Below, piece after piece: positions 2,122 through 16,181 of a DNA stretch of 26,062 nucleotides (position 1 is its first letter; each line of letters opens with the position of its first letter). The DNA lies in IMG/VR virus record IMGVR_UViG_3300047355_000035, positions 1 to 26,062 of that record. One strand, given 5' to 3'. Both the position numbers and the translations under genes were made by a program. The notes under the pieces are model-generated. The model was not told the DNA's origin. It made no database searches and saw only the letters and a program-made list of their open reading frames with translations. This DNA comes from a virus.

Positions 2122-2198
2122 CGGCCTGTAGCTCAGTTGGATAGAGCATCGGTCTTCTAAACCGAGGGTCAGAGGTTCGAATCCTCTCAGGTCGGCCA
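2122..2198 (+). tRNA. tRNA-Arg (anticodon UCU)
   Basis: A full cloverleaf can be drawn. The acceptor stem is CGGCCTG (2122-2128) with CAGGTCG (2188-2194), one G-U pair. The D stem is GCTC/GAGC (2131-2134, 2144-2147). The anticodon stem is TCGGT/ACCGA with loop CTTCTAA, anticodon TCT at 2156-2158. The T arm is AGAGG TTCGAAT CCTCT. Discriminator G2195 and an encoded CCA (2196-2198) complete 77 bases. It reads AGA, by far the commonest arginine codon in the neighbouring genes, so it probably supports translation of phage mRNAs. Confidence 0.97.
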
Positions 2199-2936: not shown

Positions 2937-4142
2937 ATGGCCGTTAAAAATCTACATTTAGAACATTTAGAAGATGAAATCATCAATAACGGTATTGATG
3001 GTGGTCGTGCTTCTATAACCTTTCTACTCGCACTCAGAGACATGATGAAAGGAAATGCCAAGAAAAAATTCAACATGACTGTCAAATGGGATGGTGCACC
3101 TGCAATCTTTTGTGGAAAACATCCAGAAGACGGCAGATTCTTTGTCGCAAAGAAATCATTATTCAATAAAGAACCTAAGTTCTATTGTTCAGTATCAGAA
3201 ATTAAGAACGCATCTGAACTATCTGGAGACTTAGAGAAGAAGTTCATAGACTCATTCGAGTATCTATCTAAACTATCCTGGAATAAAGTAATGCAAGGTG
3301 ACTTGATGTTTACTCAGGCAGATAAGAAGATGAAGAAAATAAATGATGTAGAACACATTACATTTCAACCTAACACAATCATGTATGCTGTACCAGTTCA
3401 ATCAGAATTAGGTAAACAGATTGCAAATGCCAAGTATGGTATAGTATTTCATACGACATACGAGGGTTCAAGTATAGATGATTTGGGCGCCTCATTCGGT
3501 GCAGATATATCTTCTTTAGGTCATAACAATGATGTATGGATTGATGATGCAACCTTTAAGAATGTTGCAGGTAATTCTACACTCACAGGAAAAGAAACAC
3601 TTAAGTTATCTACTCTACTTACTAAAACAGGTAAGTCATTTCATAAAATCAAAAGACCTTCACTGATTAAGTTTATGAAGATACAAGACACCATTGCATC
3701 TAAAGGTGCAGGTGCAACATACAAAACATACATGAACGCCCAAATAAGAAAGGGTAAGTTCAATCTAAACTATAATGATTATCTTAAACACTTTGAGAAC
3801 TATTGGAAAACAAAAGTGGTTGGTGCAGTAAAGATGCAGAAGACAAAAGATATCAAAGAACAAATAGGTAAAGACCTTGTCAGAGATATCAGAAGTCTTA
3901 AACCATTCATAACTGCATTGACAGAGTTTCAAGTAGGCATGGTTGAGGCGAAACAGATTATCATAGATGGTTTAAACAAAGCAAAATCAATCGGCACATT
4001 CGTAAGAACACCCACAGGTTTAAAAGTAGTAAATCCTGAGGGATATGTTGCAATCGATGATGACGGTAAGGCAGTGAAGTTAGTAGACCGTATGGAGTTC
4101 TCACTAAATAACTTTACAGCTGCAAAGGCATGGGACAAATAA
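2937..4142 (+). CDS. DUF6267-like protein with KWDG ligase-type motif, 401 aa
   Basis: The product resembles an uncharacterised marine T4-like phage family (DUF6267, from memory). Residues 50-53 are KWDG within TVKWDGAPAIFCG, matching the KxDG adenylation motif I of DNA/RNA ligases and capping enzymes, where the lysine takes AMP. Further candidate motifs are QGDLMF (120-125, possible motif III region), YGIVFHTTYEG (167-177) and lysine-rich stretches around 230-245. A covalent nucleotidyltransferase is therefore plausible, but the spacing of motifs IV and V is unclear. Its TAA overlaps the ATG of the next gene by one base, tying it to the nucleotidyltransferase-kinase. A late promoter and hairpin lie upstream. 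Confidence 0.6.
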   Translation: MAVKNLHLEHLEDEIINNGIDGGRASITFLLALRDMMKGNAKKKFNMTVKWDGAPAIFCGKHPEDGRFFVAKKSLFNKEPKFYCSVSEIKNASELSGDLEKKFIDSFEYLSKLSWNKVMQGDLMFTQADKKMKKINDVEHITFQPNTIMYAVPVQSELGKQIANAKYGIVFHTTYEGSSIDDLGASFGADISSLGHNNDVWIDDATFKNVAGNSTLTGKETLKLSTLLTKTGKSFHKIKRPSLIKFMKIQDTIASKGAGATYKTYMNAQIRKGKFNLNYNDYLKHFENYWKTKVVGAVKMQKTKDIKEQIGKDLVRDIRSLKPFITALTEFQVGMVEAKQIIIDGLNKAKSIGTFVRTPTGLKVVNPEGYVAIDDDGKAVKLVDRMEFSLNNFTAAKAWDK

Positions 4143-5443
4143 TGAAAACATTACAATCATTCATATCAGAGGCGAAACAAAGACCCGCTGTTTTTTCATT
4201 CGGAAGGTTCAACCCACCCACAATTGGGCATGGTAAACTTGTCGATAAACTAAACAAGGTATCAAAGTCAGTAAAAGGCGACCCAATGATATTTACTTCT
4301 CACTCAAATGATAAGAGAAAAAATCCACTGAATCACAAAACAAAGATTCAGTATCTAAGAAAGTTCTTTTCTAAGAAGGTTGGTGTACCAGATGCAAACG
4401 CCAGAACAGTATTCGATGTCGCAAACGCATTACACAAACAAGGTTATACTAGTATCACTATGGTTGTTGGTTCAGATAGAATCAGAGAATTCGAAACACT
4501 ACTTAAGAAATACAATGGTGTAAAGGCAAGACACGGTTTCTATAAGTTCGATGATATAAACATAGTTAGTGCTGGTGAAAGGGATCCAGATGCTGATGAT
4601 GTGTCAGGTATGAGTGCATCTAAGATGAGGGCAGCCGCAGAACAAGATGACTTTGATTCATTCAAAGGTGGCGTGCCAGATAAAAAACTCGCAGACAAAC
4701 TATACAAAGATGTGCGTAGAGGTATGGGAATCGCAGAGGAGTCGTTCTCCACTCTACCAGACTACATGATTGAGGACTTACTTAGAGAAGGTGTATATGA
4801 CCCAGGTATCTTTAAGGCAGTATTCTTCATGGGTGGTCCAGGTTCTGGTAAGTCAACAGTAGTAGATGGTTTGGGTTTGAAGGCATTAGGGTTGAAACTA
4901 GTCAATACAGATAAGTCATTTGAGAATGGTCTAAAGAAGGCAGGTCAAACCTTAGACTTAAATGCAGTACCTGCCGATATCAGAGACCCAATTAGAAAGA
5001 AGGCGAAGAGACAAACTACTCGATTGATGGACAGATACATTGACAATAGACTTGGTCTTATCTTCGATACTACAAGTGCAAACGACACTAAGATTAAAGC
5101 GTATAAGAACATGTTAGATAAACTTGGTTACGAATCTAAAATGGTGTATGTCAGTACATCACTTCCAAACGCATTGGCAAGAAACAGTTCAAGACCAAGA
5201 CAATTACCAGATGCGATTGTTAAGAAAGATTGGAACAATTCACAAAAGAATATTGCATCTATGCAGAAACTATTCAAAAGAGACTTCATGCAAGTATCAA
5301 ATGATGATGATTTAGATTCTTTAAAAAGAAAAACTAACTCAGTCTTTGGTAAATTGATGGCATGGTCTACATCATTTCCTGGAAACACCAGAGCAACACT
5401 CTGGAAACAAAGACAACTATTAACAAAGAAATTACATAAATAG
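4142..5443 (+). CDS. nucleotidyltransferase-P-loop kinase fusion with capsid-targeting-like leader, 433 aa
   Basis: I choose ATG 4142, which overlaps the previous stop (TAATG). Residues 1-11, MKTLQSFISEA, almost copy the T4 internal-protein leader MKTYQEFIAEA, with a possible cut after E10. Residues 14-195 form a cytidylyltransferase/NMN-adenylyltransferase-like domain: FGRFNPPTIGH with the TxGH box at 27-30, VVGSDRIREF at 108-117, and SGMSASKMR at 155-163 (like the ISSTxxR motif). Residues 225-433 form a P-loop kinase with Walker A GGPGSGKST at 231-239. The linker IEDLLREGVYD could also be protease-cut. The architecture recalls NadR (NMNAT plus ribosylnicotinamide kinase), but the kinase looks more like a PNK or zeta-toxin type. 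Substrate unknown. Confidence 0.75.
   Translation: MKTLQSFISEAKQRPAVFSFGRFNPPTIGHGKLVDKLNKVSKSVKGDPMIFTSHSNDKRKNPLNHKTKIQYLRKFFSKKVGVPDANARTVFDVANALHKQGYTSITMVVGSDRIREFETLLKKYNGVKARHGFYKFDDINIVSAGERDPDADDVSGMSASKMRAAAEQDDFDSFKGGVPDKKLADKLYKDVRRGMGIAEESFSTLPDYMIEDLLREGVYDPGIFKAVFFMGGPGSGKSTVVDGLGLKALGLKLVNTDKSFENGLKKAGQTLDLNAVPADIRDPIRKKAKRQTTRLMDRYIDNRLGLIFDTTSANDTKIKAYKNMLDKLGYESKMVYVSTSLPNALARNSSRPRQLPDAIVKKDWNNSQKNIASMQKLFKRDFMQVSNDDDLDSLKRKTNSVFGKLMAWSTSFPGNTRATLWKQRQLLTKKLHK
5436..5442 (+). promoter_or_regulatory. T4-type late promoter variant, zero-leader spacing
   Basis: CATAAATAGAAGTATG: the element overlaps the last codons and stop of the fusion gene and ends five bases before ATG 5448, so the predicted +1 is the A of the start codon. 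Confidence 0.6.
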
Positions 5444-5447
5444 AAGT

Positions 5448-6452
5448 ATGACTACATTATTTAAAAGAATCTTAGAACAAAGAGTTAAACAAGACAAAGA
5501 CATTAAAGATAAAGAAGGTTCACAACCTGCAAAATATCATAGTGGTTTGTCTAAAGACACTAAACAAAAACGAGATGCACACTTTAAGGCAAAGAAAAGT
5601 GGACCTGCACCTGGTGATGATGAAGGTAAGACTAAGAAGTCAGTTCATACTAAGAAGTATGAAAAACAGTTTGGCGAAGAAACCGTGATAGTAGAAAAGA
5701 TTACAGGTTTGGTAAACAAGGCAAAGAAATCAGGCATCTCATATGGTATTCTAAAGAAAGTTTACGATAGAGGATTGGCTGCATATAAGACTGGTCATAG
5801 ACCTGGTACAACTGCACCACAATGGGCATTTGCCAGAGTGAATAGTTTTATCACTAAAGGTTCAGGCACATGGGGCAAGGCAGACAAAGACCTTGCAAAC
5901 AAAGTTAGAGGTGAGTCATTCGTTGCAGACGAAGACTTCACAATGGACGAAGCATGCTGGGATGGTTACAAACAAGTTGGTACAAAAAAGAAAGGTGGAA
6001 AAGTAGTTCCTAATTGTGTGCCAGAAGAGACCGAGATAGAAGAGAACGCAAAAGTCAAAGCAATGTTAAGTAAGATGAAAGGTGTTTCATCTGCTCAGGC
6101 ACAATTAATTGCACAAATACCAATACCTGTATTGACTCAAATATCACAGGCATTGGGTCAGTTAGTAATGGGCGAAGATACTGTAGAAGAAGATAGAGAT
6201 TACAAAAAAGAGTATGAGAACTATCAAGGCAAACCAGAACAAATCAAAAGACGAGCTGCAAGAAATTCAGCTAGAAATCAGTTAAAAGACAACAAAGACA
6301 TAAAGGGTAAAGATGTTCATCATAAAGATAACAACCCAATGAATAATGATAAATCAAATCTATCAATAGTATCTAAAAACTATAATAGAAAAGAACCTAG
6401 ACTTAGAGAAAGACTAGTAAAACAGGGGATAATTAAAAATGGCAAAAGGTAA
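5448..6452 (+). CDS. modular internal-head-type protein with DUF5872-like and HNH-like domains, 334 aa
   Basis: The protein looks like beads on a string. Residues 1-10 (MTTLFKRILE) are leader-like with an ILE site. Residues 26-76 are a basic module (QPAKYHSGLSKDTKQKRDAHF, split as QPAKYHSGL and SKDTKQKRDAHF, then HTKKYEKQFGE). Residues 84-154 resemble DUF5872 (ITGLVNKAKKSGISYGILKK). Residues 166-193 contain a CWDGYKQVG...VPNCVPEE cysteine module. Residues 245-334 are a basic module with KDVHHKDNNPMNN, an HNH-nuclease-like core. Modules of this kind recur in marine T4-like phages. Overlap of 14 bases with the next gene. Probably packaged in the head; whether the HNH part is active is unknown. 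Confidence 0.7.
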   Translation: MTTLFKRILEQRVKQDKDIKDKEGSQPAKYHSGLSKDTKQKRDAHFKAKKSGPAPGDDEGKTKKSVHTKKYEKQFGEETVIVEKITGLVNKAKKSGISYGILKKVYDRGLAAYKTGHRPGTTAPQWAFARVNSFITKGSGTWGKADKDLANKVRGESFVADEDFTMDEACWDGYKQVGTKKKGGKVVPNCVPEETEIEENAKVKAMLSKMKGVSSAQAQLIAQIPIPVLTQISQALGQLVMGEDTVEEDRDYKKEYENYQGKPEQIKRRAARNSARNQLKDNKDIKGKDVHHKDNNPMNNDKSNLSIVSKNYNRKEPRLRERLVKQGIIKNGKR

Positions 6453-7320
6453 TAAAACAGACAATGGTGTTCATCTAATGGGTACAGATGAAATGCTTGC
6501 CGCTTACAAGGCAGATACACCAGGTGAATTAGAAACATCTTATACTGAAAATGTAGACAAGATGATTAAGATTCAAGGTAAGAAGAACAAAGAAGGCAAG
6601 AAGAATCATATGTCTATGTTGTTTGATAATCCTTTAAAGGGATATCCTTACAATGAGTCAGTAGAACTAAAAGAACTTGAAGAAGAAATCGATGCACTGA
6701 TTCTATCTGAAGCATTATCCAAAAAAATGAATATCCAAAAGTACGCAAAGAAAGTAGGATTTAATTCAGACGAAGTTCAATGGATTATGGACAACGAAGA
6801 TGAAGACCATTACGAAAATAATAGTGCCATGAAAAATGAGTGGAGTGCATTATCATATCCTATCAGAACAGGTGATTACTACTTTGCCTTCATTGGTGAC
6901 CGTATGACTGATACCTCTATCACCAAAGCAAATAACAAAATGAATGATGCCATGAGAAAGTATTTTCAAATGGGTCAAAAGAAACTAGAAACATTCTATG
7001 ATGATGATGCAGAATACAGTAAAAAAGATATGCTCGCATCATACATGTGGAATGAAATGTCTCAGATATTTGAAAAACTACCTGCTGGTTTAGGCGCTGA
7101 CGATACAATGACACGAGAATGTCTATACACTGCAATTAAACATATGACAGGCGATGGTGAGATTGTATTCGAACATACTACTATGGCAGATGACATAATC
7201 AACGAAGGTATGTTTAAGAATCTTGCAAAGGGTATCATGGGTAGAATTAGAAATAAACTTAGAAAAGTTAAAAAGAAAATCAAATTAGGCAAAAGAGCCA
7301 AAGATTTAATGGTGAAGTAA
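6439..7320 (+). CDS. uncharacterised late protein with basic tail, 293 aa
   Basis: The start at 6439 has AGGGGATAA upstream and lies inside the previous gene. Residues 1-60 are hydrophilic (VHLMGTDEMLAAYKADTPGE). A possible prohead-protease site occurs at ALILSEAL (86-93), after an acidic stretch (ELKELEEEID). The central part is a mixed alpha/beta domain rich in Tyr and Asp (DNEDEDHYENN, FAFIGDRMTD). The last 35 residues are strongly basic (IRNKLRKVKKKIKLGKRAK), which would suit contact with packaged DNA. Its stop overlaps the next ATG (TAATG). No enzyme motif recognised; a head-packaged role is inferred from context. Confidence 0.6.
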   Translation: MAKGNKTDNGVHLMGTDEMLAAYKADTPGELETSYTENVDKMIKIQGKKNKEGKKNHMSMLFDNPLKGYPYNESVELKELEEEIDALILSEALSKKMNIQKYAKKVGFNSDEVQWIMDNEDEDHYENNSAMKNEWSALSYPIRTGDYYFAFIGDRMTDTSITKANNKMNDAMRKYFQMGQKKLETFYDDDAEYSKKDMLASYMWNEMSQIFEKLPAGLGADDTMTRECLYTAIKHMTGDGEIVFEHTTMADDIINEGMFKNLAKGIMGRIRNKLRKVKKKIKLGKRAKDLMVK

Positions 7321-7727
7321 TGATTAAGGATTTCAAGTCTTTATTCGAAGAAGAATCTACACCAGAAGTCATTTCTGAGGTAGACTCTATACAAACTAGA
7401 ATGAAGAAACGCAGAGCAATGCGTAAGAACAAAGCGAAGATTGCCTTTGCACGAAAGAAGGCAATGAAGAGAAAGATTCTAGACCCAAAGAAACTTATGA
7501 AGAGGGCACAAAAACAAGCTCGAAGTAAGATTGCCTCAAGAATTCTAAAAGGTAAAAACAAAGCAGAATTGGGTATGGGTCAAAAGAGGGCTCTAGAAAA
7601 GATACTCGATAAGAAAACAAAAGCAATATCTAAACTTGCCAAGAAGATGTTGAAAGTCGTAAGACAAAAAGAAATGAACAAAGGCAAAAAGACATTAAAA
7701 GATATTGCACCAGGTAACGCAAAATGA
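7320..7727 (+). CDS. highly basic internal-head-type protein, 135 aa
   Basis: Residues 1-11 (MIKDFKSLFEE) form a leader ending in a possible LFE cut site, and VISE at 17-20 gives a second. What remains is almost wholly Lys/Arg/Ala helix, with runs such as RMKKRRAMRKNKAKIAFARK and KKLMKRAQKQARSKI. Removal of the acidic leader would leave a small, very basic DNA-binding polypeptide, similar in logic to T4 internal proteins. Marine T4-like phages carry comparable Lys/Arg-rich proteins. It overlaps its neighbours at both ends (1 and 4 bases). Confidence 0.7.
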   Translation: MIKDFKSLFEEESTPEVISEVDSIQTRMKKRRAMRKNKAKIAFARKKAMKRKILDPKKLMKRAQKQARSKIASRILKGKNKAELGMGQKRALEKILDKKTKAISKLAKKMLKVVRQKEMNKGKKTLKDIAPGNAK

Positions 7728-8269
7728 AGATAAACACATTCAAGGGCATGGCAATCGATGACACATTGAGAGACTTGCAGATGACAGAAACAAATCTATT
7801 AGATAATCCATTCAGACTAGGTTCAATGATGTACTTTGAAGTAATCAAAGAGGCAAAAAAACTAGTTGCAGAAGGAAGATACAATCTTACAGAGATAGAT
7901 AAACAAGTCTTAGAAACAAACTTAGGTGAGTATGATATCTATGAGAATGAACTTGTACCTCTAGATTGTCCTATGATGGAGATGAACGAAGAAGAAGATA
8001 AAGATGTTGCAATAGGTAAACCTAAAGCAGGCGGGCCTAAGAAGTTCTATGTCTATGTTAAAGACGGTGACAAGACAAAGAAAGTCACATTCGGAGATAC
8101 ATCAGGTCTATCAGTAAAATTTAAAGACCCTAAGGCAAGAGCATCATATGTCGCAAGACATAATTGTGATACTGCAAATGATAAAACCACACCAGGATAT
8201 TGGTCATGTAGACTACCAAGATACGCAAAACAACTTGGTCTGAGTGGTGGTGGTTCATTTTTCTGGTAA
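7724..8269 (+). CDS. phage protein with C-terminal WSCR domain, 181 aa
   Basis: Starts by an ATGA overlap with the previous gene. The N-terminal part (1-100) is acidic and helical and ends in MMEMNEEEDKDV. A separate C-terminal domain (about 108-181) reads KKFYVYVKDGDKTKKVTFGD, then a conserved-looking ARHNCDTANDKTTPGYWSCR block and ends in GGGSFFW. I recall this cysteine-containing block as a recurrent module in marine phage proteins, where its role is unknown. The late block position and modular build suggest a virion component. Confidence 0.65.
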   Translation: MKINTFKGMAIDDTLRDLQMTETNLLDNPFRLGSMMYFEVIKEAKKLVAEGRYNLTEIDKQVLETNLGEYDIYENELVPLDCPMMEMNEEEDKDVAIGKPKAGGPKKFYVYVKDGDKTKKVTFGDTSGLSVKFKDPKARASYVARHNCDTANDKTTPGYWSCRLPRYAKQLGLSGGGSFFW

Positions 8270-8279
8270 AAAATAACAC

Positions 8280-8286
8280 CTAAATA
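8280..8286 (+). promoter_or_regulatory. T4-type late promoter variant, zero-leader spacing
   Basis: CCTAAATATTTGTATG: the element ends five bases before ATG 8292, placing the predicted +1 on the start codon. No Shine-Dalgarno sequence is visible for this gene. Confidence 0.55.
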
Positions 8287-8291
8287 TTTGT

Positions 8292-8573
8292 ATGAAACCA
8301 TACAGAGAACGAATAGAAGAACAACATGGTACAGGTCGAGAGTTCATATATCGAACATTCGAACCAAATATACTAGATGACGAACTCGTTTGGCACAGAG
8401 ATAAAAAGAATCGATGTGTACATGTATTAAGTGGAAGTGGTTGGCAATTACAATTAGATGACAAATTGCCTAAAGATTTAACAATAGGATTAGATTACTA
8501 CATACCCAAGATGACTTATCATAGAGTCATTAAAGGTACTAGTGACCTAGTCGTAAGGATTGAGAACATATAA
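8292..8573 (+). CDS. small cupin-like protein, 93 aa
   Basis: A compact, beta-rich 93-residue protein. The segment LVWHRDKKNRCVHVLSGSGW followed by LGLDYY-type turns (TIGLDYYIPKMTYHRVIKG) has the spacing of a small single-domain cupin: a first-motif His, a glycine-rich strand pair, then IPKMTYHRV as the second motif. Only a partial metal-ligand set is apparent (H in VWHRD, H in YHRV). Similar small cupin-like proteins occur in cyanophages and pelagiphages with no known role. It is preceded by a late promoter and followed by a second one. Confidence 0.55.
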   Translation: MKPYRERIEEQHGTGREFIYRTFEPNILDDELVWHRDKKNRCVHVLSGSGWQLQLDDKLPKDLTIGLDYYIPKMTYHRVIKGTSDLVVRIENI

Positions 8574-8576
8574 ATA
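8569..8576 (+). promoter_or_regulatory. T4-type late promoter TATAAATA
   Basis: An exact TATAAATA overlaps the end of the cupin-like gene (stop TAA 8571-8573). The predicted +1 is near 8582, three bases before ATG 8585. Confidence 0.65.
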
Positions 8577-8584
8577 ACTATATC

Positions 8585-8950
8585 ATGGAAAACAAAACTT
8601 GGAAAGATAAACTAGAAGAAGTAAGAGGTTTTAACAAGACCGAAACTTCTCCAGCAATTATAGATGAGAAATTAACATCTGATGAAATCGAGGAAATGCT
8701 TAAAGAAGAGTTCAAAGAACTTGCAGAGGGCGAAAAGACGGCAGTGGAGTCACTCGAAGAAAAACGAGACAGACTCAAAGAAGAACTCGCACACATAGAA
8801 GAAGAGATTGCTACATCTAATGAGTCAGTTGAAAAAACCATAGAAAAATTAACAGAAAGAAATATGCTTGGCAGACTTGCTAAGTCTTTAAAACTTAATG
8901 AAACTGGTAAACAGAAGATGTTTGACTATTTCGAACAAGGGGAACTATAA
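8585..8950 (+). CDS. acidic coiled-coil protein, 121 aa
   Basis: The product is glutamate- and lysine-rich and strongly helix-favouring. A long coiled coil is likely over residues 35-85 (for example SLEEKRDRLKEELAHIEEEI). No catalytic motif, signal peptide or membrane segment is seen. The C-terminal segment MLGRLAKSLKLNETGKQKMF is less charged. It overlaps the next ATG by one base (TAATG) and is expressed from its own TATAAATA promoter. A scaffold-like or internal-head role is possible but unproven. Confidence 0.6.
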   Translation: MENKTWKDKLEEVRGFNKTETSPAIIDEKLTSDEIEEMLKEEFKELAEGEKTAVESLEEKRDRLKEELAHIEEEIATSNESVEKTIEKLTERNMLGRLAKSLKLNETGKQKMFDYFEQGEL

Positions 8951-9714
8951 TGAAATTAACAGATAAGGGTGTATCAGACCAATTAGTTGCTGATATGAGA
9001 ACCATGTTAGAGGGTCATCTATCAGAAGAACCGTTTAATGCAAATGCAGCTCTAAAGAAACAAAGAATCAAGGGTATGCAAGACAAACTCGAAAATCTAA
9101 GAACACAAAGACAACGAGCTGATGATTCTGCTAAACAGGCAAGAGACCAAGGTAGAGATGACGCCGCTGATGACCACGAACATAAGGGCGATAGAATTAA
9201 CAACAATATCAGAGACCTTAAGGCAAAGATAAGAGATGAGATGAATGAAGACAACACCAATGACAAGTCAGACGATGGTGAAGGTCTAGATAAAGTTAAA
9301 AAAGATGCAGTTAAGAAGAAGTTTGCAGACCGTAAAGACAAAGACATTGACAATGATGGCGACACTGATTCTTCAGACGAATATCTTCATAAGAAAAGAC
9401 AGGCAATCTCCAAGAAAATGGATGAGGGCGAATTACCACCTGCATTGAAAAAGGCAATCGATAAGAAGAAAGGTGAAGACGATGAAGAAGAAGTCGAAGA
9501 AGGAAAATTACCACCTGCTCTTCAGAAAGCAATAGACAAGAAGAAAGGTAAAGATACAGACGATGATGAGAAAGAAGTCGAAGAGGGCAAAGACAAAATC
9601 AAATATCGTGGTAATCTAAAAGATTTGAAGGCAATGAAAGAAGACTTCATGATAATCATAGAGAAGTACGGATTAGACCAAGTTAAGACTATTATCAATT
9701 CAATCGAGAAATAA
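8950..9714 (+). CDS. charged modular protein with EF-hand-like loop and LPPAL repeats, 254 aa
   Basis: The N-terminus holds possible protease sites (MRTMLEG, HLSEE). A charged helical region (35-100) follows. Residues 132-143 (DIDNDGDTDSSD) form a DxDxDG calcium-binding-type loop, as in dockerin or EF-hand proteins. A 15-residue element, ELPPALKKAIDKKKG, occurs at 161-175 and again with two changes at 186-200, each followed by an acidic stretch ending in EVEEGK. The C-terminus (228-254) is a small helical domain. One base separates its stop from the next ATG. Likely part of the same packaged-protein series; no function assigned. Confidence 0.65.
   Translation: MKLTDKGVSDQLVADMRTMLEGHLSEEPFNANAALKKQRIKGMQDKLENLRTQRQRADDSAKQARDQGRDDAADDHEHKGDRINNNIRDLKAKIRDEMNEDNTNDKSDDGEGLDKVKKDAVKKKFADRKDKDIDNDGDTDSSDEYLHKKRQAISKKMDEGELPPALKKAIDKKKGEDDEEEVEEGKLPPALQKAIDKKKGKDTDDDEKEVEEGKDKIKYRGNLKDLKAMKEDFMIIIEKYGLDQVKTIINSIEK
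9430..9549 (+). repeat. two-copy coding repeat (LPPAL element), 75-base period
   Basis: Copy 1 covers 9430-9474 and copy 2 9505-9549. The protein copies match at 13 of 15 positions, while synonymous codons differ (for example aaggca versus aaagca, gataag versus gacaag), so the duplication is old and retained at the protein level. Confidence 0.75.
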
Positions 9715-9715
9715 C

Positions 9716-11194
9716 ATGAATCTGTTTCAAGAGGCAAAGTCAGTTTTAGACAAGGACGGTAAAGTAAATCCTTTAGGTCCTTACGGCAAACAAAAACTCA
9801 CAGGTAGAGAAACATCTGCCTATTTTCGTAGAAACAAAGTAAAACCAGGCGATATCAAGAAAGCAGTAGAAGTTGCACTTGACCTTGGTGGTGCAGATAC
9901 TATTGCAAGACAAGAAATTAAAAAGTTCTTTGGTGATAAGATTCTTAAATCAAAAGAAGTTCAAAACGCATTACAATACGCAAACGAAGAGACATTCAGA
10001 GATGACCTTAACAATTTAGATGAGGGTTCATTCTATGGTAGAGATGACTTAGTTAAACAATTTGCTACACCCAAAAATAAAAAACACCTCTTTGTAAAAT
10101 TAAGAAAGACTGATTCTAAAGGCACACATGGTGTCAGTATGGCAAAAAAGGGCAACGAGAAGAAGATTGCTGATTATAAAAGACAAGGGTACAAAGAAGT
10201 ACCAGTAGAATCTGTAGAAGAGGGTTTCAAACCTTACAATGACAAACAGTATCCTAGATGTGTAGACTTCTACATTCAGTTTAGAGGTGGTAAAGGAGAC
10301 AGAATCACTTCACCAGAAAATAAGAAAGATTTTGAAACTGCAAAGAAGATGATTGATACATATTGCAGAACAAACAAAATCAAACAGAAACCAGTTTACT
10401 CAACACCTGAAGAGGGTTCAAGTGCATACAAAGTCGGTCTTATGATTGACAGTACTTACAGTAAAACATCTGATTATAAAGACGGCAAAGACTTGCAACC
10501 TTTATATGTATCATTAAGTAAACTAAAGACCGCAGAAGACCACGGTGGTGGTTGGAGTCAAGCAGTAATTAAAGAAGAAACAGATTTAACAGAGAACTAT
10601 AGAAAACTCGCACAACATGGTATGGGTGCAGAGGGTAAGAAAGATATCAAAACTGGTACAGGTGTAGATTTCTATGAACCTAAACAAGGTAATAAGAGAC
10701 AAGGTAAAGTCACTAAGATGACTGCTACTGGTTACTCAGTTAAAGATGAGAAAGATGGTAAAACATATACATTTATGTACCACGACAGAATGAAGGCAAA
10801 GAAACTTCTTCAGAAGAAAGATAAACTATCTAACATCATTAAGAAGAACACCATCCAGAAAGGTAAGTTCGCTGGATACATGACTGATTCAGTAGAAGAG
10901 GCACAACAAGGTGCAAGACAGTCTATTATGGACACATATAGAAATATATGGGAAGAAGACTTACAAGAAGAGATGATTACTTACAGAGTTAAGAAGATGC
11001 ATCCTGCTGAAAAGAAAAAGTTCGAACAGTCAGGAAAGATGATGGGTCTAAAAGTCACCATGAATACTAACAAACAAGATACATTAGTTGTTATGAGTGG
11101 CACTAAGAAGAAACTCAGAGACTTCGACTCAGTTGCAAGAGGTAAATCATCATATGGTGATCCTTCAACAGTATCACACTTTGACGAGAAGTAA
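9716..11194 (+). CDS. large modular internal-head-type polyprotein, 492 aa
   Basis: The start MNLFQEAKSVL offers an FQE-A site within seven residues. At least four modules are separated by acidic, cut-site-like linkers: residues 20-103; a KLRKTDSKGTHGVSMAKKGN segment (128-147) ending at SVEEG (166-170); a cysteine-containing domain (174-285) that includes YPRCVDFYIQF; a small SH3-like module with GTGVDFYEPKQGNKRQGKV (313-331) after LTEN (291-294); and a C-terminal domain (420-492) with MITYRVKKMHPAEKKKF and RDFDSVARGKSSYGDPS. I recognise several of these from marine T4-like phages. No catalytic residues are evident. Packaging in the head is inferred. Confidence 0.65.
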   Translation: MNLFQEAKSVLDKDGKVNPLGPYGKQKLTGRETSAYFRRNKVKPGDIKKAVEVALDLGGADTIARQEIKKFFGDKILKSKEVQNALQYANEETFRDDLNNLDEGSFYGRDDLVKQFATPKNKKHLFVKLRKTDSKGTHGVSMAKKGNEKKIADYKRQGYKEVPVESVEEGFKPYNDKQYPRCVDFYIQFRGGKGDRITSPENKKDFETAKKMIDTYCRTNKIKQKPVYSTPEEGSSAYKVGLMIDSTYSKTSDYKDGKDLQPLYVSLSKLKTAEDHGGGWSQAVIKEETDLTENYRKLAQHGMGAEGKKDIKTGTGVDFYEPKQGNKRQGKVTKMTATGYSVKDEKDGKTYTFMYHDRMKAKKLLQKKDKLSNIIKKNTIQKGKFAGYMTDSVEEAQQGARQSIMDTYRNIWEEDLQEEMITYRVKKMHPAEKKKFEQSGKMMGLKVTMNTNKQDTLVVMSGTKKKLRDFDSVARGKSSYGDPSTVSHFDEK

Positions 11195-11195
11195 T

Positions 11196-11522
11196 ATGAC
11201 ATATAAAAGTCTAGTACAAGTAATTAAAGAACACAATGATGGCAAAGAAGAAATCATTGAAAGAATAAACTTTCATGGGAAAAGTCCTGCTGAGAAAAAG
11301 GGTTCAGAGTTCAATAGAAAACAAGAAATCAATGGTTATAAAAAGATTTTAAAGACTATTGAAAAGATTAACAAAGACCACGAGAAGTTTCAATATAACA
11401 ATCGTGCAGACGGACCATCTAATATATTTAAAGGTCTACAACAAGTTGAAAGAACATGCTATGACTTGATACGAGAAATTGAACAAGGCAAATGGGATGG
11501 TAAAGTGGACTTAGAAGAATAA
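11196..11522 (+). CDS. uncharacterised helical protein, 108 aa
   Basis: ATG 11196 is chosen because it directly follows the previous stop; the in-frame extension upstream to 11097 lies inside the preceding gene. The product begins MTYKSLVQVIKEHNDGKEE, a leader-like opening similar in shape to its neighbours though without a clear cut site. It is lysine-rich and helical, with KKILKTIEKINKDHEKFQY near residues 50-68. Its TAA overlaps the next ATG (TAATG). No family recognised. Confidence 0.6.
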   Translation: MTYKSLVQVIKEHNDGKEEIIERINFHGKSPAEKKGSEFNRKQEINGYKKILKTIEKINKDHEKFQYNNRADGPSNIFKGLQQVERTCYDLIREIEQGKWDGKVDLEE

Positions 11523-12082
11523 TGGAAAAAGTAGACGCCAGAACAAGAATGTTTAAAGAAAAGTTGAAGAGACTCAACTATAAAAAACATATTACAGATG
11601 CAATTGAGGCATCATCAAATGTCAAACAAGTAATGGAAAAGATTGCTGACTTTGGTATGATGTCAGATGCAGGTAATAAAAAAATTGCTCGTGCTGTTGC
11701 ACAATCTAAGAACGAGAAAGATTTAAGAGCAAAATTAGATAAAATATCTAAAATGGCAAAGGGTAAGTATGCAGAGGCAGAAGAGGATGAAGTCTTCAAT
11801 CGTGCCATGGATGCAATGCAATCGAAGGCAACTGGTGTACAGAATAGACCAGATGCAACGATGTTAATACAACTTCGTAAATTCAAAGATGGAACCAAAG
11901 ATGGTGAAGTTAGAACAGATGATATGAAGAAGATTAAAGTAAAAAATGCAGATGCAGTCAAAGTTCATGACACTTTAATGAAGGTTCGAGCACCAATTCG
12001 AACTAAATACTTACAACTATTACAAAAAGACAAAAACACTTTTAGTAAAACATTTAATGCAATCTTAAAGGTTGCGAAATAG
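11522..12082 (+). CDS. uncharacterised helical protein, 186 aa
   Basis: It overlaps the preceding gene by one base. The protein is mostly helical and basic overall, with alternating Lys/Asp-rich segments (KKIARAVAQSKNEKDLRAKL, EDEVFNRAMDAMQSK). A compact C-terminal domain (about 115-186) includes RKFKDGTKDGEVRTDDMKKI. No signal peptide, membrane segment or catalytic motif is visible. It is the last of the run of charged proteins before the beta-rich structural proteins begin. Confidence 0.6.
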   Translation: MEKVDARTRMFKEKLKRLNYKKHITDAIEASSNVKQVMEKIADFGMMSDAGNKKIARAVAQSKNEKDLRAKLDKISKMAKGKYAEAEEDEVFNRAMDAMQSKATGVQNRPDATMLIQLRKFKDGTKDGEVRTDDMKKIKVKNADAVKVHDTLMKVRAPIRTKYLQLLQKDKNTFSKTFNAILKVAK

Positions 12083-12091
12083 GAGAATAAA

Positions 12092-12637
12092 ATGGCATTA
12101 TGGGGAATTTCAGATGCAGACGAATCGAAACCTAAGTGGTTAAACGATGCAGATAAGAAGAAAGTTTACGCTGACGCTAGTGGTTGGAGATTTGAAAACC
12201 CTAAAAGTGGCGCAACAGATGAAGTCTTATGTGCAGTAAGTGGACTTGCAGTTTCAATTGGTTCTGCTGATATTACAGAAATAGAATTTATTTCAACAGC
12301 ATTTGATAAATCAGCGGGTGGAACATTATCCGTACGAGTTAGATTTAACGAGGCAGTTGCAGTCACAGGCACACCACAACTTACAGTTGTAAATGACCAA
12401 AGAGCAAATCATGTATTATCATACGCAAGTGGTACAGGTTCTAACGAACTAGTATTCAGTCTTGTAATTGGTGCAGCTAACGCTGCTACAAATGCAGGTG
12501 ATGTTCTAAGTATTGGTGCAAATGCAATGGCATTAAACAGTGGTACTGTAAAAGATAACGGTACTTCTACAAACGCAACTATTACCAATATCGCAGGAAT
12601 TGGTACTGCTGCTGGTACAATTACAGTAGTTGCATAG
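12092..12637 (+). CDS. Ig-like-repeat virion structural protein, 181 aa
   Basis: A good ribosome site (AGGAGAA) precedes ATG 12092. Residues 1-45 (MALWGISDADESKPKWLNDA onwards) match a start I recall from marine T4-like structural proteins. The remainder is a low-lysine, Ala/Thr/Gly-rich beta domain: SADITEIEFISTAFDKSAGG, then AVAVTGTPQLTVVND and a run of short strands to the end, similar to SwmB/invasin-type Ig-like repeats. Composition is sharply unlike the charged proteins upstream. A surface-exposed or decoration role is likely by analogy. Confidence 0.65.
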   Translation: MALWGISDADESKPKWLNDADKKKVYADASGWRFENPKSGATDEVLCAVSGLAVSIGSADITEIEFISTAFDKSAGGTLSVRVRFNEAVAVTGTPQLTVVNDQRANHVLSYASGTGSNELVFSLVIGAANAATNAGDVLSIGANAMALNSGTVKDNGTSTNATITNIAGIGTAAGTITVVA

Positions 12638-12646
12638 TAGAAGACT

Positions 12647-12874
12647 ATGGCATATGTAGTCGTTCCAGGTTCGAATAATTTATGGCAGTATGATAATGCT
12701 GCCGTAAAATCTGATTCAGATACTTACAACGAATCAAATGGTACGGTTGCAAACGGCATTAGAACATTCACTACACCAGGTGGTAATGTCGAAAGGGTCT
12801 ACATTAAGTGTAGAAAAGTTGGTGAAACAATAGTTCGTGGTGAGTTGAATAAAAACTACTACGATGCACAATAG
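12647..12874 (+). CDS. small beta-rich phage protein, 75 aa
   Basis: A 75-residue protein nine bases after its neighbour. The opening MAYVVVPGSNNLWQYDNAA and the closing VYIKCRKVGETIVRGELNK resemble small proteins next to the Ig-like structural gene in marine T4-like phages. All of it looks beta-stranded, with a single cysteine. Probably a virion component co-expressed with the upstream gene. Confidence 0.6.
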   Translation: MAYVVVPGSNNLWQYDNAAVKSDSDTYNESNGTVANGIRTFTTPGGNVERVYIKCRKVGETIVRGELNKNYYDAQ

Positions 12875-12882
12875 GAAAAATT

Positions 12883-13302
12883 ATGAAATCATTTAACGAA
12901 TATTTAATTGAAAATTTAGGTGGGGACTTTGGTTTAGACTCAACAGTACCTTACGACATAGATTCCCAGGCAGTTAAGAACAAACTTAATGCAGTTTTGG
13001 GTCATGTTGCAGTGTCAGAGTTTATGAATCCTCTCGCCGCTATTCAACAAATGGAATCAAAACTCTCTCAAATGGGTCTACATAAGAAAGTTCAAGTAGA
13101 AGGACATGGTGTAGTACAAGATGAAGAGTTCTCAGGTTCAGGTGAATTAAACTTAGAGTTTACTCAATTTGGTGGGGTGTTTGGTAAATCAGTAGATACA
13201 CCTATCGATGAGATTGAGAAAGAAGAAAGAAACATTTCTCTCAAAGTTAAATATGAACAGTTAGAAACTGGTTCATTCAAAGTTTACGGTTCAATCGTTT
13301 AA
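12883..13302 (+). CDS. protein with capsid-targeting-like leader, 139 aa
   Basis: AGGAAAAATT precedes ATG 12883. The first ten residues, MKSFNEYLIE, match the T4 internal-protein leader MKTYQEFIAE position by position, mostly conservatively, ending in a plausible LIE cut site. The mature part (11-139) has a helical segment (AAIQQMESKLSQMGLHKKVQ) and then a beta-rich half (SGSGELNLEFTQFGGVFG, ISLKVKYEQLETGSFKVYG). No enzyme motif. A packaged head protein is inferred from the leader. Confidence 0.65.
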   Translation: MKSFNEYLIENLGGDFGLDSTVPYDIDSQAVKNKLNAVLGHVAVSEFMNPLAAIQQMESKLSQMGLHKKVQVEGHGVVQDEEFSGSGELNLEFTQFGGVFGKSVDTPIDEIEKEERNISLKVKYEQLETGSFKVYGSIV

Positions 13303-13307
13303 ACTTC

Positions 13308-13349
13308 TTTAGTTGAGTCTACTAAATACTAGTAGACACAACAACTAAA
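13308..13349 (+). promoter_or_regulatory. two-part inverted repeat containing a late promoter
   Basis: The outer stem TTTAGTTG (13308-13315) pairs perfectly with CAACTAAA (13342-13349). The inner stem GTCTACTA (13317-13324) pairs perfectly with TAGTAGAC (13330-13337) around AATAC. The late promoter CTAAATA (13322-13328) lies in the inner stem-loop, so transcripts begun there (about 13334) would lack both left arms. No U-tract follows, which argues against a simple terminator. Confidence 0.55.
13322..13328 (+). promoter_or_regulatory. T4-type late promoter variant CTAAATA
   Basis: ACTAAATACTAGTAG sits inside the inverted repeat. The predicted +1 near 13334 gives a 26-base leader to ATG 13360, the same length as at the ligase-like gene, and the leader carries the same ACACAACAA element (13336-13344). 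Confidence 0.6.
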
Positions 13350-13359
13350 CAATTATATT

Positions 13360-13731
13360 ATGGGTCTATTTGACAAAATCACAGCAAAAAACTTTAACGC
13401 ATACGCACATAAGCATTATGATGACCCCCAATGTGAAGACATTGAGGACTTTAATGAAGACTTGCGTAGGTTTAGATATCTAAAACGACTACTTCATCGT
13501 TACCATGAGAATGGTGAATTAAGAGAACGCCTCATGTTGAATCATATTATATGTTTATTCAATGTGTTTGGATTTGAGGCATGTATGAGAATGTTGCAGT
13601 TTAAGATTAAAGAAGAAGAACATTGGTCATCTATAAAGACTATGTTGTTATATCTTGAACTCATACAAGAAGGTTGGTTGATAAACTACCCTATAGATGA
13701 TAAACTTGCACAACGATTGAGAGAACTGTAG
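13360..13731 (+). CDS. DUF7207-like phage protein, 123 aa
   Basis: A helical 123-residue protein beginning MGLFDKITAKNFNAYAHKHY. The segments DPQCEDIEDFNEDLRRFRYL and LMLNHIICLFNVFGFEA are familiar from a small conserved family in cyanophages and other marine T4-like phages (DUF7207, from memory). Function unknown. It has its own late promoter with the hairpin leader, so it starts a new transcription unit with the two genes that follow. Confidence 0.7.
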   Translation: MGLFDKITAKNFNAYAHKHYDDPQCEDIEDFNEDLRRFRYLKRLLHRYHENGELRERLMLNHIICLFNVFGFEACMRMLQFKIKEEEHWSSIKTMLLYLELIQEGWLINYPIDDKLAQRLREL

Positions 13732-13744
13732 TCATTCAGATTGC

Positions 13745-13751
13745 ATAAATA
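13745..13751 (+). promoter_or_regulatory. T4-type late promoter variant, zero-leader spacing
   Basis: GCATAAATAGATATATGG: the element ends five bases before ATG 13757, so the predicted +1 coincides with the start codon. Confidence 0.6.
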
Positions 13752-13756
13752 GATAT

Positions 13757-14386
13757 ATGGTCGGAAGAGTAATAGACAGTTTAATCGTATTCAGGATTCT
13801 TAAGATGTTGACAACACCTTTTGAGAAGACACCTGCCTACAAGTTTGGGTTCATTGACCAGAATGGTGTAAGAGTCAAGTTCATAACAGACCCAGAAAAT
13901 AAGAATCAAAAACTTGCAAACAACCCCAAGACAAAAGAAGAGAAGAACTCTCTCACACCTTTACATAGATTAGTATTCAATCTAAAGAAACTAATTAGAA
14001 AAGTGCCTGGTGGTAAGTCACAATTGGCATCATATGCAGTTGCACTTGGTTTACTCAAAGAACATACTAACTTAGATTCAGAACAGGCAGACCAGTTGTA
14101 TGAAGACTTTTATAGATTACTGAAAGACGAAGATGCATTTCAACCAGAGATGATTGAAGAGGCACAAGACATTGGTAAACTATGTTCTCTAAAAATGCAT
14201 GGTTCTGATTATCATCTAAGAACTCAAATCAAACAGAACTTTGATGAGAATGAAGAAATCAAAATATATCCAGAAAAATCAACAGTCACCAATGTTGCAG
14301 AACATAGTATAGGTTATGGTGTACTAATATATGAGGGGTACATAGGGGAAGATAGAGTCCTGTTTACCGCAGAAGATGTATATTAA
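13757..14386 (+). CDS. conserved T4-like structural-type protein, 209 aa
   Basis: The start MVGRVIDSLIVFRILKMLTT and the following TPFEKTPAYKFGFIDQNG resemble a family annotated as structural in vibriophage- and cyanophage-type T4-like genomes. A lysine-rich stretch (60-90) precedes a helical region (QLASYAVALGLLKEH). The C-terminal half has acidic helices and ends in YIGEDRVLFTAEDVY. It overlaps the PAP2 gene by 11 bases, suggesting coupled translation and perhaps joint function. No catalytic motif seen. Confidence 0.65.
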   Translation: MVGRVIDSLIVFRILKMLTTPFEKTPAYKFGFIDQNGVRVKFITDPENKNQKLANNPKTKEEKNSLTPLHRLVFNLKKLIRKVPGGKSQLASYAVALGLLKEHTNLDSEQADQLYEDFYRLLKDEDAFQPEMIEEAQDIGKLCSLKMHGSDYHLRTQIKQNFDENEEIKIYPEKSTVTNVAEHSIGYGVLIYEGYIGEDRVLFTAEDVY

Positions 14387-16181
14387 CGAAGTACTATATC
14401 ATATTGATGAAGACTACAAACAATATTGTGATGCAATAGACTCCATATGTGAAGAACTTCTAGTTGAAGAAGACAAGAAGAAAGATGCATGGTTCTTCGA
14501 CATGTCTACAGATAAACAACAAGACTATCTCAAGTCACATCCAGATTCAGACAAGGCAAAAGAACTCAAAAGAAAACTACAATCAATGCCCAAAAAGGGC
14601 GACCAAGGTGATACGAGACCGGCACCGGATAAAAAATCTCCGAAGGGGAATGTAGCGAAGACAAATCCCGACAAGGACGCCACACCTTCTGAGAAACCTA
14701 AGAACGATGTTGGTGGTTCATTACCAACTCAAGTTGCAGACTTAAAACAACACATTGGTGAATTAAAAGATGCAATAGGTTTAGATATCGCAACGATTGG
14801 TAAGGCATTTAAAGAACCTTCAGTATACAATACAGTCAAGGCGATTGGTGGTTCAATAACTGCAACATCTAAGACCATAATGGGTTCACTTAGAACTGTG
14901 GGTAAGACTCTTACAGTAGGGGGTGCCGCTATACATGACACTAAGGCATTCCAACAGTTAGAAAAGGGTCTAATTAAAACAGATGAGTTCATGCAGAAAA
15001 ACAAAGTACTCGCAACTATGAGTGCTGTTGGTGTATCTAGTCTCGCAATTGCACAATGGTTAAGAATGTCATTCTCGGGTGATATAGAATCTGATTTTGA
15101 CTTGACTATTATACCTGCCGCCTTTGCAGGTAACGCTGGGTTCGCAGACTTGATTGCAACGCCAGATGGTATCAAAGGTATTGGTTTATTGAGTGCTGGT
15201 ATGGCAACAGGTGGTCTACCTATATGGATGGGTGGTCCTGTTGGTCTTGCAATGGCATTAACATATTCAGGTTTAGTCAGTGCAGGTGATACAAAGAAAG
15301 GCGCTGAGATTAAAAAGAAAATGGTCGATTGGGCAGATAGTATGAGGTCATCAACTGGTGATGTACTGAGAAAAGTTGACAAGAAACTTGGTCTAACAAC
15401 AGAGTCATTGATGAATCCATCGAACATAGATAAACTTCAATTCAATGTATTTGAGAAACTAAAGAAACCCAAATATCACAAAGTAGAGATATTTGAAGAT
15501 GGTTGGTCAGAAATAGAAATGATGCCCCCACCTACAAATAGTTCTAAAACAACTAAGTCAGAATTAGAAACAGTCATCAAAGAGTCAAACAACGCAACAG
15601 ATGACATCAAAAAGAAATACATCAATTGTGCCGATGACCCATGTTATTATATCAAAGAATACATGGAAGACTCAGACTTAGAGTTTGATGAAGAGTATAT
15701 GGATTACATCGTAGACCAATGTACACCAGTAATCAGACACTTTAAAAATTCATTCAACAGACCTAGACCATATCAAGTTGCAGAAGCACTTAATATGAAA
15801 CTTAACAAATGGAAAACAGGAACTGCAAACTCTCCTTCATATCCATCAGGTCATTCAATGCAACCATATCTGGTTGCAAACTTCTATGCAGAGAAATATC
15901 CAGAACATGAGGGTAATCTTAGAGATGCCGCTGATATATGTGCATATGGAAGAGTTCAAGCTGGGTTGCATTACCCAACAGATTATAACGCAGGTATACA
16001 ACTTGCAGATGAAATGGCAAAGTATCTTAAAGATGACTTAAAAGAAGATGCGCCAGTGAACGCTACAGGTAGTGCTGTATCAACAGACACACCTTTAGTA
16101 AGAAGTAGAAACAAGTATCTCAAAAAGAACAAAGAAGATTCTAAGAAGATTTTCGGTCTTTTAAAAAGATACTCTAAGTAA
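14376..16181 (+). CDS. PAP2-family phosphatase fused to a phage N-terminal region, 601 aa
   Basis: The C-terminal domain (about 415-555) has the complete PAP2 signature: K457-x6-R464-P465 in KNSFNRPRP, PSGH at 490-493, and R526-x5-H532-x3-D536 in GRVQAGLHYPTD. PAP2 enzymes dephosphorylate phosphatidic acid, undecaprenyl pyrophosphate or similar. Residues 1-33 are acidic with an ELLVEED cut-like site. Residues 39-67 form a STDKQQDYLKSHPDSDKAKE module common in marine phages. Residues 71-115 are a Pro/Lys linker. Residues 210-305 contain several hydrophobic stretches (VLATMSAVGVSSLAIAQWL; GLPIWMGGPVGLAMALTYSG) that could touch membrane. Substrate and cellular site are unknown; a virion-delivered enzyme is inferred. 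Confidence 0.8.
   Translation: MYINEVLYHIDEDYKQYCDAIDSICEELLVEEDKKKDAWFFDMSTDKQQDYLKSHPDSDKAKELKRKLQSMPKKGDQGDTRPAPDKKSPKGNVAKTNPDKDATPSEKPKNDVGGSLPTQVADLKQHIGELKDAIGLDIATIGKAFKEPSVYNTVKAIGGSITATSKTIMGSLRTVGKTLTVGGAAIHDTKAFQQLEKGLIKTDEFMQKNKVLATMSAVGVSSLAIAQWLRMSFSGDIESDFDLTIIPAAFAGNAGFADLIATPDGIKGIGLLSAGMATGGLPIWMGGPVGLAMALTYSGLVSAGDTKKGAEIKKKMVDWADSMRSSTGDVLRKVDKKLGLTTESLMNPSNIDKLQFNVFEKLKKPKYHKVEIFEDGWSEIEMMPPPTNSSKTTKSELETVIKESNNATDDIKKKYINCADDPCYYIKEYMEDSDLEFDEEYMDYIVDQCTPVIRHFKNSFNRPRPYQVAEALNMKLNKWKTGTANSPSYPSGHSMQPYLVANFYAEKYPEHEGNLRDAADICAYGRVQAGLHYPTDYNAGIQLADEMAKYLKDDLKEDAPVNATGSAVSTDTPLVRSRNKYLKKNKEDSKKIFGLLKRYSK

Follow-up and report, generated by a model that had tools for sequence, protein, structure and literature searches.

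A predicted two-enzyme precursor and other probable head cargo with T4-like capsid-targeting leaders in a marine myovirus fragment

Mutagenesis of the capsid-targeting sequence of bacteriophage T4 assigned residues 4 and 7 to targeting and residues 8 and 10 to processing, and a D10 change blocked processing while targeting was kept (PMC9026906). Internal proteins of T-even phages have been found by the leader signal before (PMC12373910). In the marine relatives of T4, mass spectrometry (MS) keeps finding enzymes in cyanophage virions, and the papers considered here give no route by which they enter the particle; cytidylyltransferases of one family were found by MS in purified virions of S-SM1 (PMC3037559), S-SCSM1 (PMC9602691), and S-CREM2 (PMC10665884). 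Here, we analyzed a 26,062-nucleotide stretch of the virus record IMGVR_UViG_3300047355_000035 (hereafter the window), which is a fragment of a T4-type marine myovirus with 44 called genes. Genes are named by the positions at which they start, and we focus on those at 4142 and 12883 and the block that they bound. As a T4-type tag is found here and enzymes with the same tag occur in the particles of related phages, the block probably encodes proteins packed with the DNA and perhaps delivered with it.

Leader pattern in the fragment and in virion proteins of relatives

The initial annotation listed five leader-like N-termini at 4142, 5448, 7320, 9716, and 12883, and all were present there. The likeness that it had seen between the 4142 and 12883 leaders and that of T4 held at residues 4, 7, 8, and 10, namely L4, F7, and I8-S-E10 followed by A in 4142 and F4, Y7, and L8-I-E10 followed by N in 12883. 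The strict pattern M[KRN][TSN]h..hh.E (h, hydrophobic) was the only form fixed before the N-termini of S-CREM2 were viewed. Among the 3003 in-frame starts of G001, a near-identical record of 140,007 bases, this pattern hit exactly these two genes, whose products are identical to those of the window at 432 of 433 (4142) and 136 of 139 residues (12883). The same pattern was found at three of the 3030 starts in T4 (IPII, IPIII, and gene 61.1), one of 4841 in S-CREM2 (ORF154), two of 4452 in S-SCSM1, and one of 4501 in S-SM1 (not at a gene start; the NMNAT of S-SM1 escapes the pattern with K at position 3). No match was found among 2484 starts in Pelagibacter phage HTVC008M, the nearest named phage for the 4142 gene (43.6% over 91% of the protein), or among 1519 in lambda.

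The wider patterns R1 and R2 were written after the S-CREM2 N-termini had been viewed, and R3, with a floating register, was too loose for use alone, with many matches that are not gene starts. R1 matched 21 of the 22,311 starts in six T4-type genomes, eight of them not annotated gene starts, and none of 1519 in lambda. This noise of approximately 4 in 10,000 predicts about 0.02 chance matches for the 44 window genes, and two were seen. Orthologue N-termini were counted with a query start up to 30 and the nearest ATG within 15 codons. Among distinct N-termini, R1 matched 26 of 28 for 12883, 30 of 77 for 4142, and, for 21 further genes of the window, 2 of 409, each an orthologue of 6439. DUF6267 was omitted from the last total, as the nearest-ATG rule gave 0/42, an undercount (3 of the 18 leader-bearing relatives match at the first Met). 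One of the six search seeds was the leader octapeptide, so that counts of exact MKSFNEYL and MNLFQEAK are not independent, unlike those of variant N-termini. The loose pattern R4 matched 61/77 for 4142, 9/23 for 7320, and 13/46 for 5448, as against 0/155 for eight families taken as controls once the table was complete; it also matched 13360 (3/22), 8292 (3/31), 9716 (3/30), 6439 (2/37), and 7724 (1/33). Among the looser leaders proposed at the outset, orthologues support those of 7320 and 9716, while that of 5448 stayed weak.

The NMNAT-like and DUF6267 sets were collected independently of the leader, by domain motifs or a downstream motif, and the former kept 80 of 589 relatives. Other genes at the loci offer no clean background, as neighbours carry the leader too. 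We trained a matrix on 15 of 18 DUF6267 N-termini, omitting a duplicate leader, the short leader of HTVC008M, and a longer variant. Among the 3003 starts of G001, the matrix again picked out the two genes, ranking 12883 first and 4142 third. In T4, 61.1 and IPI took ranks 1 and 2 and IPIII and IPII ranks 6 and 7; in S-CREM2, ORFs 154, 14, and 136, all MS-detected virion proteins, took ranks 1–3; and in S-SCSM1, ORF30 and the NMNAT took ranks 1 and 2. The score ceiling in lambda was 6.6, and two shuffled N-termini in T4 scored above 9. The 15 leaders are most informative at positions 4 (4.1 bits), 7 (3.4), 10 (2.6), 5 (2.5), 8 (2.4), and 9 (2.2) and least so at 2, 3, and 6 (1.2–1.7). Thus, conservation points at the right residues when set against 4, 7, 8, and 10 of the T4 mutagenesis.

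The MS-detected NMNAT-like relatives start MKKFSAFLNEA (S-SM1), MKSFLQFLKEA (S-SCSM1), and MKNFSSFLTEA (S-CREM2); NMNATs are also reported in virions of S-CBWM1 and S-SZBM1. A long linker separates leader from enzyme in S-SM1 and S-SCSM1, which suggests that the leader has been retained for a role of its own. Six annotated starts of S-CREM2 fit R2, and five of these are among the 52 of 219 genes whose products were detected in virions (hypergeometric p = 0.003, with R2 set after these N-termini had been viewed): the NMNAT, a SAM lyase (Pfam, E-value of 2e-19), a kinase-like protein, ORF13, and ORF136. The MS-detected S-CREM2 proteins 155, 156, 165, 174, and 176 carry no exact leader. In S-SCSM1, genes 89–98 lie just before the primase gene, as the block does here, and seven of these ten are marked as virion proteins in the record, one of them with the DxDNDG module of 8950 (E-value of 2e-5). 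Likewise, S-CREM2 virion protein 160 has the CW.GY...NCV module of 5448 (E-value of 1e-7). Neither "N-terminal" nor "propeptide" occurs in the main texts of the S-CREM2 and S-SCSM1 MS papers.

A gp21-type protease, for which the initial annotation had asked, is absent from the fragment and was found as Peptidase_S77 in G001 and in a second near-identical record of 114,386 bases, G002 (E-value of 2.4e-38). G001 also encodes gp22 (phrog_237, E-value of 4.2e-71), gp23 (phrog_138, E-value of 3.9e-160), and a portal protein. The gp23 site VLSE/A was matched by eye to LTE/A of T4, and its cleavage is predicted (slashes mark predicted cuts). Across the block and the genes flanking it (2937–16181, 17 genes), h-x-E-[AG] occurs 22 times against 10.1 in shuffles, with the excess lying mostly in 8950, 9716, 4142, and 7724. 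The corresponding numbers are 8 against 2.1 in gp22, 6 against 5.6 in eight control genes of the window, and 67 against 71.7 in 103 other genes of G001.

Leader-like starts were seen in other genes as well. T4 gene 61.1 (54 residues; NC_000866, 18966–19130, minus strand) starts MKTFKEFIKED, matches the leader pattern in full, and has the top matrix score in T4; it is unmentioned in the main text of PMC5694885, and "gp61.1" was not found in the further literature searched. A 101-residue gene of G001 (C1, 32728–33033, minus strand), apparently just beyond the left end of the window, starts MSLFNDYIEEG and fits the register. The leader-bearing SAM lyase and kinase-like protein of S-CREM2 lie at 3837–5081 and 10579–12846, and a Cas9-annotated virion protein with LRFASFMAEAAV near residues 17–28 of its annotated frame lies at 7704–10313 (all in L106, minus strand), which suggests an injected anti-restriction set. 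ORF30 of S-SCSM1 (106 residues; L104, 4216–4536, plus strand) starts MKTFKQFMSES amid virion genes and is itself unmarked as a virion protein, and S-SCSM1 virion protein 93 (L105, 5627–5836, plus strand) ends in the leader-like KKKRTFKEFLEYIE.

A predicted two-enzyme precursor with an internal site

The start of gene 4142 overlaps the stop of the DUF6267 gene (TAATG), and an in-frame ATG lies four codons upstream; most orthologues begin at MK. Outside the leader, the protein matches enzyme families. The AlphaFold2 model has two folded domains (approximately residues 15–194 and 224–433) with an overall predicted template modelling score of 0.48. Residues 1–11 and 200–209 have predicted local distance difference test values below 50, a helix spans 207–216, and the leader is predicted to be helical in part. 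In structural alignments, PPAT/NadD/NMNAT enzymes match the first domain, and polynucleotide kinases are the best matches of the second. The NadR structure 6gyf ranked third in Foldseek, but NadR is not favoured as a model for the fusion, given the better alignment of polynucleotide kinases. No solved structure related by sequence to this protein or DUF6267 was found. The motifs FGRFNPPT.GH and SGMSASK.R, which we take to be NMNAT-like active-site motifs, are invariant in all 21 aligned relatives.

In the alignment of the 21 fused relatives, all 19 rows covering the leader have F or W at position 7 and E at position 10, positions 5, 6, and 9 vary, and one row (L135) has an insertion inside the leader. 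Among the 80 NMNAT loci, 17 fit the strict pattern, 6 R1, and 16 a shifted register. The interdomain segment of all 21 relatives contains E-G (E216-G217), preceded by one variable position and, before that, a hydrophobic one. The kinase of HTVC008M is a separate protein that starts, as MIPFILKEGLYDPGIFKA, just before the position of this site, a standalone form at locus L176 starts MKKTLDEIRQYINEGVYDPGIFKA, and one fused form (L164) reads PLREFREYLNEGVYDPG. In the light of these forms, the interdomain linker of 4142 looks like a fused leader. Neither the internal site nor the leader variants at 7724 and 11196 had been part of the initial annotation.

Other genes of the block and its surroundings

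The features are collected in Table 1. The 12883 protein has no Pfam or PHROG match, and its HTVC008M relative, gp139, starts MKSFKDFQNVNE. For 9716, tblastn found no relatives in named phages.

Table 1. Coordinates of the leaders, predicted domains, sites, and genes discussed in the text (window positions).
Positions	Strand	Feature	Remarks
356–802	+	PNKP-type 3'-phosphatase, separate gene	Pfam HAD_PNKP, E-value 1.7e-28; leaderless
2937–4142	+	DUF6267, RNA-ligase-like fold (suggestive)	leaderless here
4142–4171	+	Capsid-targeting-like leader MKTLQSFISE	gp21 predicted to cut between E10 and A11
4142–5443	+	433-residue precursor	leader, NMNAT-like nucleotidyltransferase, and polynucleotide-kinase-like P-loop kinase
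4184–4723	+	NMNAT/PPAT-like nucleotidyltransferase domain, residues 15–194	Z 13–15
4775–4792	+	Internal gp21-type site DLLRE/G, residues 212–217, between enzyme domains	E216, G217 in 21/21
4802–5374	+	Polynucleotide-kinase-like domain, residues 221–411	4mde Z 15.3; T4 polynucleotide kinase 1ltq Z 13.3
5448–5477	+	Weak leader MTTLFKRILE	before DUF5824, CW.GY...NCV module, HNH-like end
7320–7352	+	Leader MIKDFKSLFEE, one-residue register shift	orthologues start MKTFREFLEDD, MLSFKQFVSEV
7320–7727	+	135-residue lysine- and arginine-rich protein	
7724–7762	+	Leader variant MKINTFKGMAIDD	orthologues have E instead of D (e.g., MKTFKELAIRE)
8950–9714	+	Protein with DKDIDNDG...EYLHKKRQ module	4 h-x-E-G sites (0.6 expected)
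9716–9733	+	Short Alt-type leader MNLFQE	
9716–11194	+	492-residue protein, no assigned function	4 h-x-E-[AG] sites (0.9 expected)
11196–11231	+	Likely start of next small gene, MTYKSLVQVIKE	relative L042 starts MKSFKEYNQLNE
12883–12912	+	Capsid-targeting-like leader MKSFNEYLIE	top of 3003 G001 starts (matrix); 26/28 orthologues
12883–13302	+	139-residue leader-bearing protein	no family match

For the DUF6267 model, RNA or tRNA ligases fill the top 12 structural-alignment (VIA) rows, with a best Z of 7.1, below the trust line of 8, and Foldseek gave no match at an E-value of 0.001 or less. K50-W-D-G is invariant in 27 of 27 sequences, and we take K-x-D-G to be the motif of the RNA ligase nucleotidyltransferase fold. 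These observations are suggestive of an RNA ligase. With the PNKP-type phosphatase, the polynucleotide-kinase-like domain, and the ligase-like DUF6267 near each other, the genes may form a polynucleotide end-repair set.

The initial annotation spoke of late proteins; the late-promoter motif TATAAATA occurs 3 times in the window against 2.2 expected and lends no support to late expression. A candidate relationship of 12092 to S-SCSM1 virion protein 95 was dropped as it consists of an 8-residue match (E-value of 0.028). The modules CW.GY...PNCV (in 5448–6452) and DKDIDNDG...EYLHKKRQ (in 8950–9714), both on the plus strand, recur across several otherwise dissimilar proteins of the group to which this virus belongs, and some of these proteins have been found in virions. 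The 601-residue protein at 14376–16181 (plus strand) has a C-terminal PAP2-type phosphatase domain (E-value of 1e-7), and in the relative L159 this PAP2-type part is a separate gene starting MRRLKSYIIED. A tRNA-Arg (TCT) gene lies upstream of the block (2122–2198, plus strand), and a gene for a c-type cytochrome (22373–22816, plus strand; Pfam Cytochrom_C, E-value of 7e-9, CAACH motif) adjoins a glutaredoxin gene.

Candidate route of the proposed cargo, alternatives, and described systems

We propose that the block encodes head cargo with scaffold-binding leaders; a gp21-type protease would cut this cargo, including between E216 and G217 of 4142, and the products would probably enter the cell with the DNA. 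We put the probability of this reading at roughly three in four (0.76). The leaders of 4142 and 12883, and the variants on 7320, 9716, and 7724, would attach to the scaffold core of the prohead, as T4 leaders do, and the proteins bearing them would thereby be enclosed before DNA packaging. The protease would then cut after the leader glutamate and, in 4142, also at the internal site, freeing two enzymes, and the cargo would stay among the DNA and probably enter the cell with it. That the leaders target proteins to the head in this virus, and that these are cleaved, injected, and active on entry in the repair of NAD+ or nucleic-acid ends, is inferred. The mechanism itself is that of T4, here extended to enzyme cargo in marine phages. 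The suggestion made at the outset that the block forms a set of packaged and injected proteins is thus borne out in part: the leader occurs on unrelated families and marks virion proteins in relatives, but 6439, 8292, 11522, and 12092 show no consistent leader among their orthologues, and the DUF6267 protein of this virus is leaderless.

Several observations weigh against head cargo. In the window, 12883 has N after the predicted cut instead of A, G, or S, 7724 carries D in place of the E of its relatives, DUF6267 lacks a leader that 18 of 44 relatives carry, and the orthologues of 6439, 8292, 11522, 12092, and 13360 have no consistent leader. Two of the 21 fused relatives are leaderless, 41 of the 80 NMNAT loci fit no fixed pattern (many are shortened, such as MKTFKDIREA, and two are cut at a contig end), and HTVC008M has no R1 match, its NMNAT leader MKTLKELLRKK having K at position 10. 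The virion MS evidence comes from relatives only, and ORF175 of S-CREM2 and ORF30 of S-SCSM1 fit the pattern and are not reported in virions. S-PM2 encodes a cytidylyltransferase that, according to PMC3037559, an earlier study failed to detect in its virions, and none is named among the 14 proteins detected for S-CREM1, as far as the available text goes. The virions of S-CBWM1, which has been described as a non-T4 cyanomyovirus, are also reported to contain NMNAT-like proteins and kinases. In addition, the MS papers themselves caution that abundant proteins may be carried over, and the authors of the S-CREM2 and S-SCSM1 papers are undecided between cargo and carry-over.

Carry-over would account for the presence in virions if F-x-x-F/Y-I/L-x-E docked to another partner, for instance a host protein or the sliding clamp. 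The segment is short, part of it is predicted to be helical, the S-CREM2 authors allow for carry-over (PMC10665884), and some leader-bearing proteins are undetected in virions. Nevertheless, we regard docking as highly unlikely: the leader is found on IPI, IPII, and IPIII of T4, where its function is established, five of the six annotated S-CREM2 leader genes are among those detected, and the conserved glutamate and the enrichment of h-x-E-[AG] fit a protease and not a docking site. That the resemblance to T4 arose by chance or by common ancestry within a single protein family is already disfavoured and scarcely tenable. A short motif could recur, and the NMNAT family could inherit its N-terminus, but the leader occurs on unrelated families (NMNAT, DUF6267, SAM lyase, kinase-like, and the 12883 family), the eight control families lack it by R4, and S-SM1 and S-SCSM1 retain it before their long linkers.

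It is unlikely, if less so, that proteins sent to the prohead core by the leader serve in assembly or DNA condensation and are not delivered as active enzymes, with the leader never cut in some members. Consistent with such a role, several leaders lack E (HTVC008M gp130, 7724, and the DUF6267 clade with MFSFKGFITTE), the T4 D10 change stops processing and not targeting (PMC9026906), and the K/R-rich 7320 family could suit DNA binding. A purely structural role would need none of the NMNAT-like active-site motifs that are invariant in 21 of 21 relatives, and the two separate sites in 4142 suggest the release of working enzymes.

A broader scenario is tentative and, on balance, rather doubtful. 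Marine T4-type phages may keep a cargo locus by the primase and ribonucleotide reductase genes, with the leader as a portable tag on a varying set of enzymes (for NAD synthesis, the healing of polynucleotide ends, and RNA sealing; elsewhere SAM cleavage and a kinase). Here, a fused polyprotein would be split in the head, and an NAD+-restoring repair kit would enter before phage genes are read and blunt defences that cut tRNA or drain NAD+.

Should the cargo reading hold, the T4-type leader supplies a route into the particle for the enzymes found in cyanophage virions, and is a sequence rule predicting from the genome alone which proteins these widespread ocean viruses may deliver with their DNA; it is checkable on existing virion samples and perhaps on existing spectra. 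Among the literature matches listed for capsid targeting, internal proteins, prohead proteases, and NMNAT in cyanophage virions, with most subscription journals outside their coverage, no description of such leaders in marine phages was found.

Among the described systems, the capsid-targeting sequence of IPI, IPII, and IPIII of T4 is close to the window leaders, whose hydrophobic residues 4, 7, and 8 and E10 stand in the register of IPII and IPIII; the gp21-type protease and gp22-type scaffold are shared with G001. Those T4 internal proteins that have been tested to date act as inhibitors of GmrSD restriction enzymes (PMC12373910), whereas the best case in the window is a predicted bifunctional enzyme with an internal site. 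T4 Alt, an injected ADP-ribosyltransferase, is an enzyme cargo with a 6-residue leader cut at ITE-6, and MNLFQE of 9716 and MKLISE of G001 gp21 are similarly short; no relation of Alt to 9716 was found beyond the leader, and cyanomyoviruses are reported to lack alt (PMC2984593). The ejection proteins of phiKZ and SPN3US are likewise head proteins with propeptides cut after E by a gp21-related protease, but these propeptides are much longer, several exceeding 100 residues (PMC5694885). Polyvalent proteins are multidomain and predicted to be injected with a role in early conflict, and their description, in the text available, includes no T4-type leader (PMC5512222). The cyanophage NMNAT-like cytidylyltransferase (T4-GC190) has an enzyme domain 39–46% identical to that of 4142 (S-SCSM1, S-CREM2) and the same leader, and is in the virions of three phages; the proteins of S-CREM2, S-SCSM1, and S-SM1 differ from 4142 in lacking the kinase domain, in having a different C-terminal part, and, in two of them, in their long linkers.

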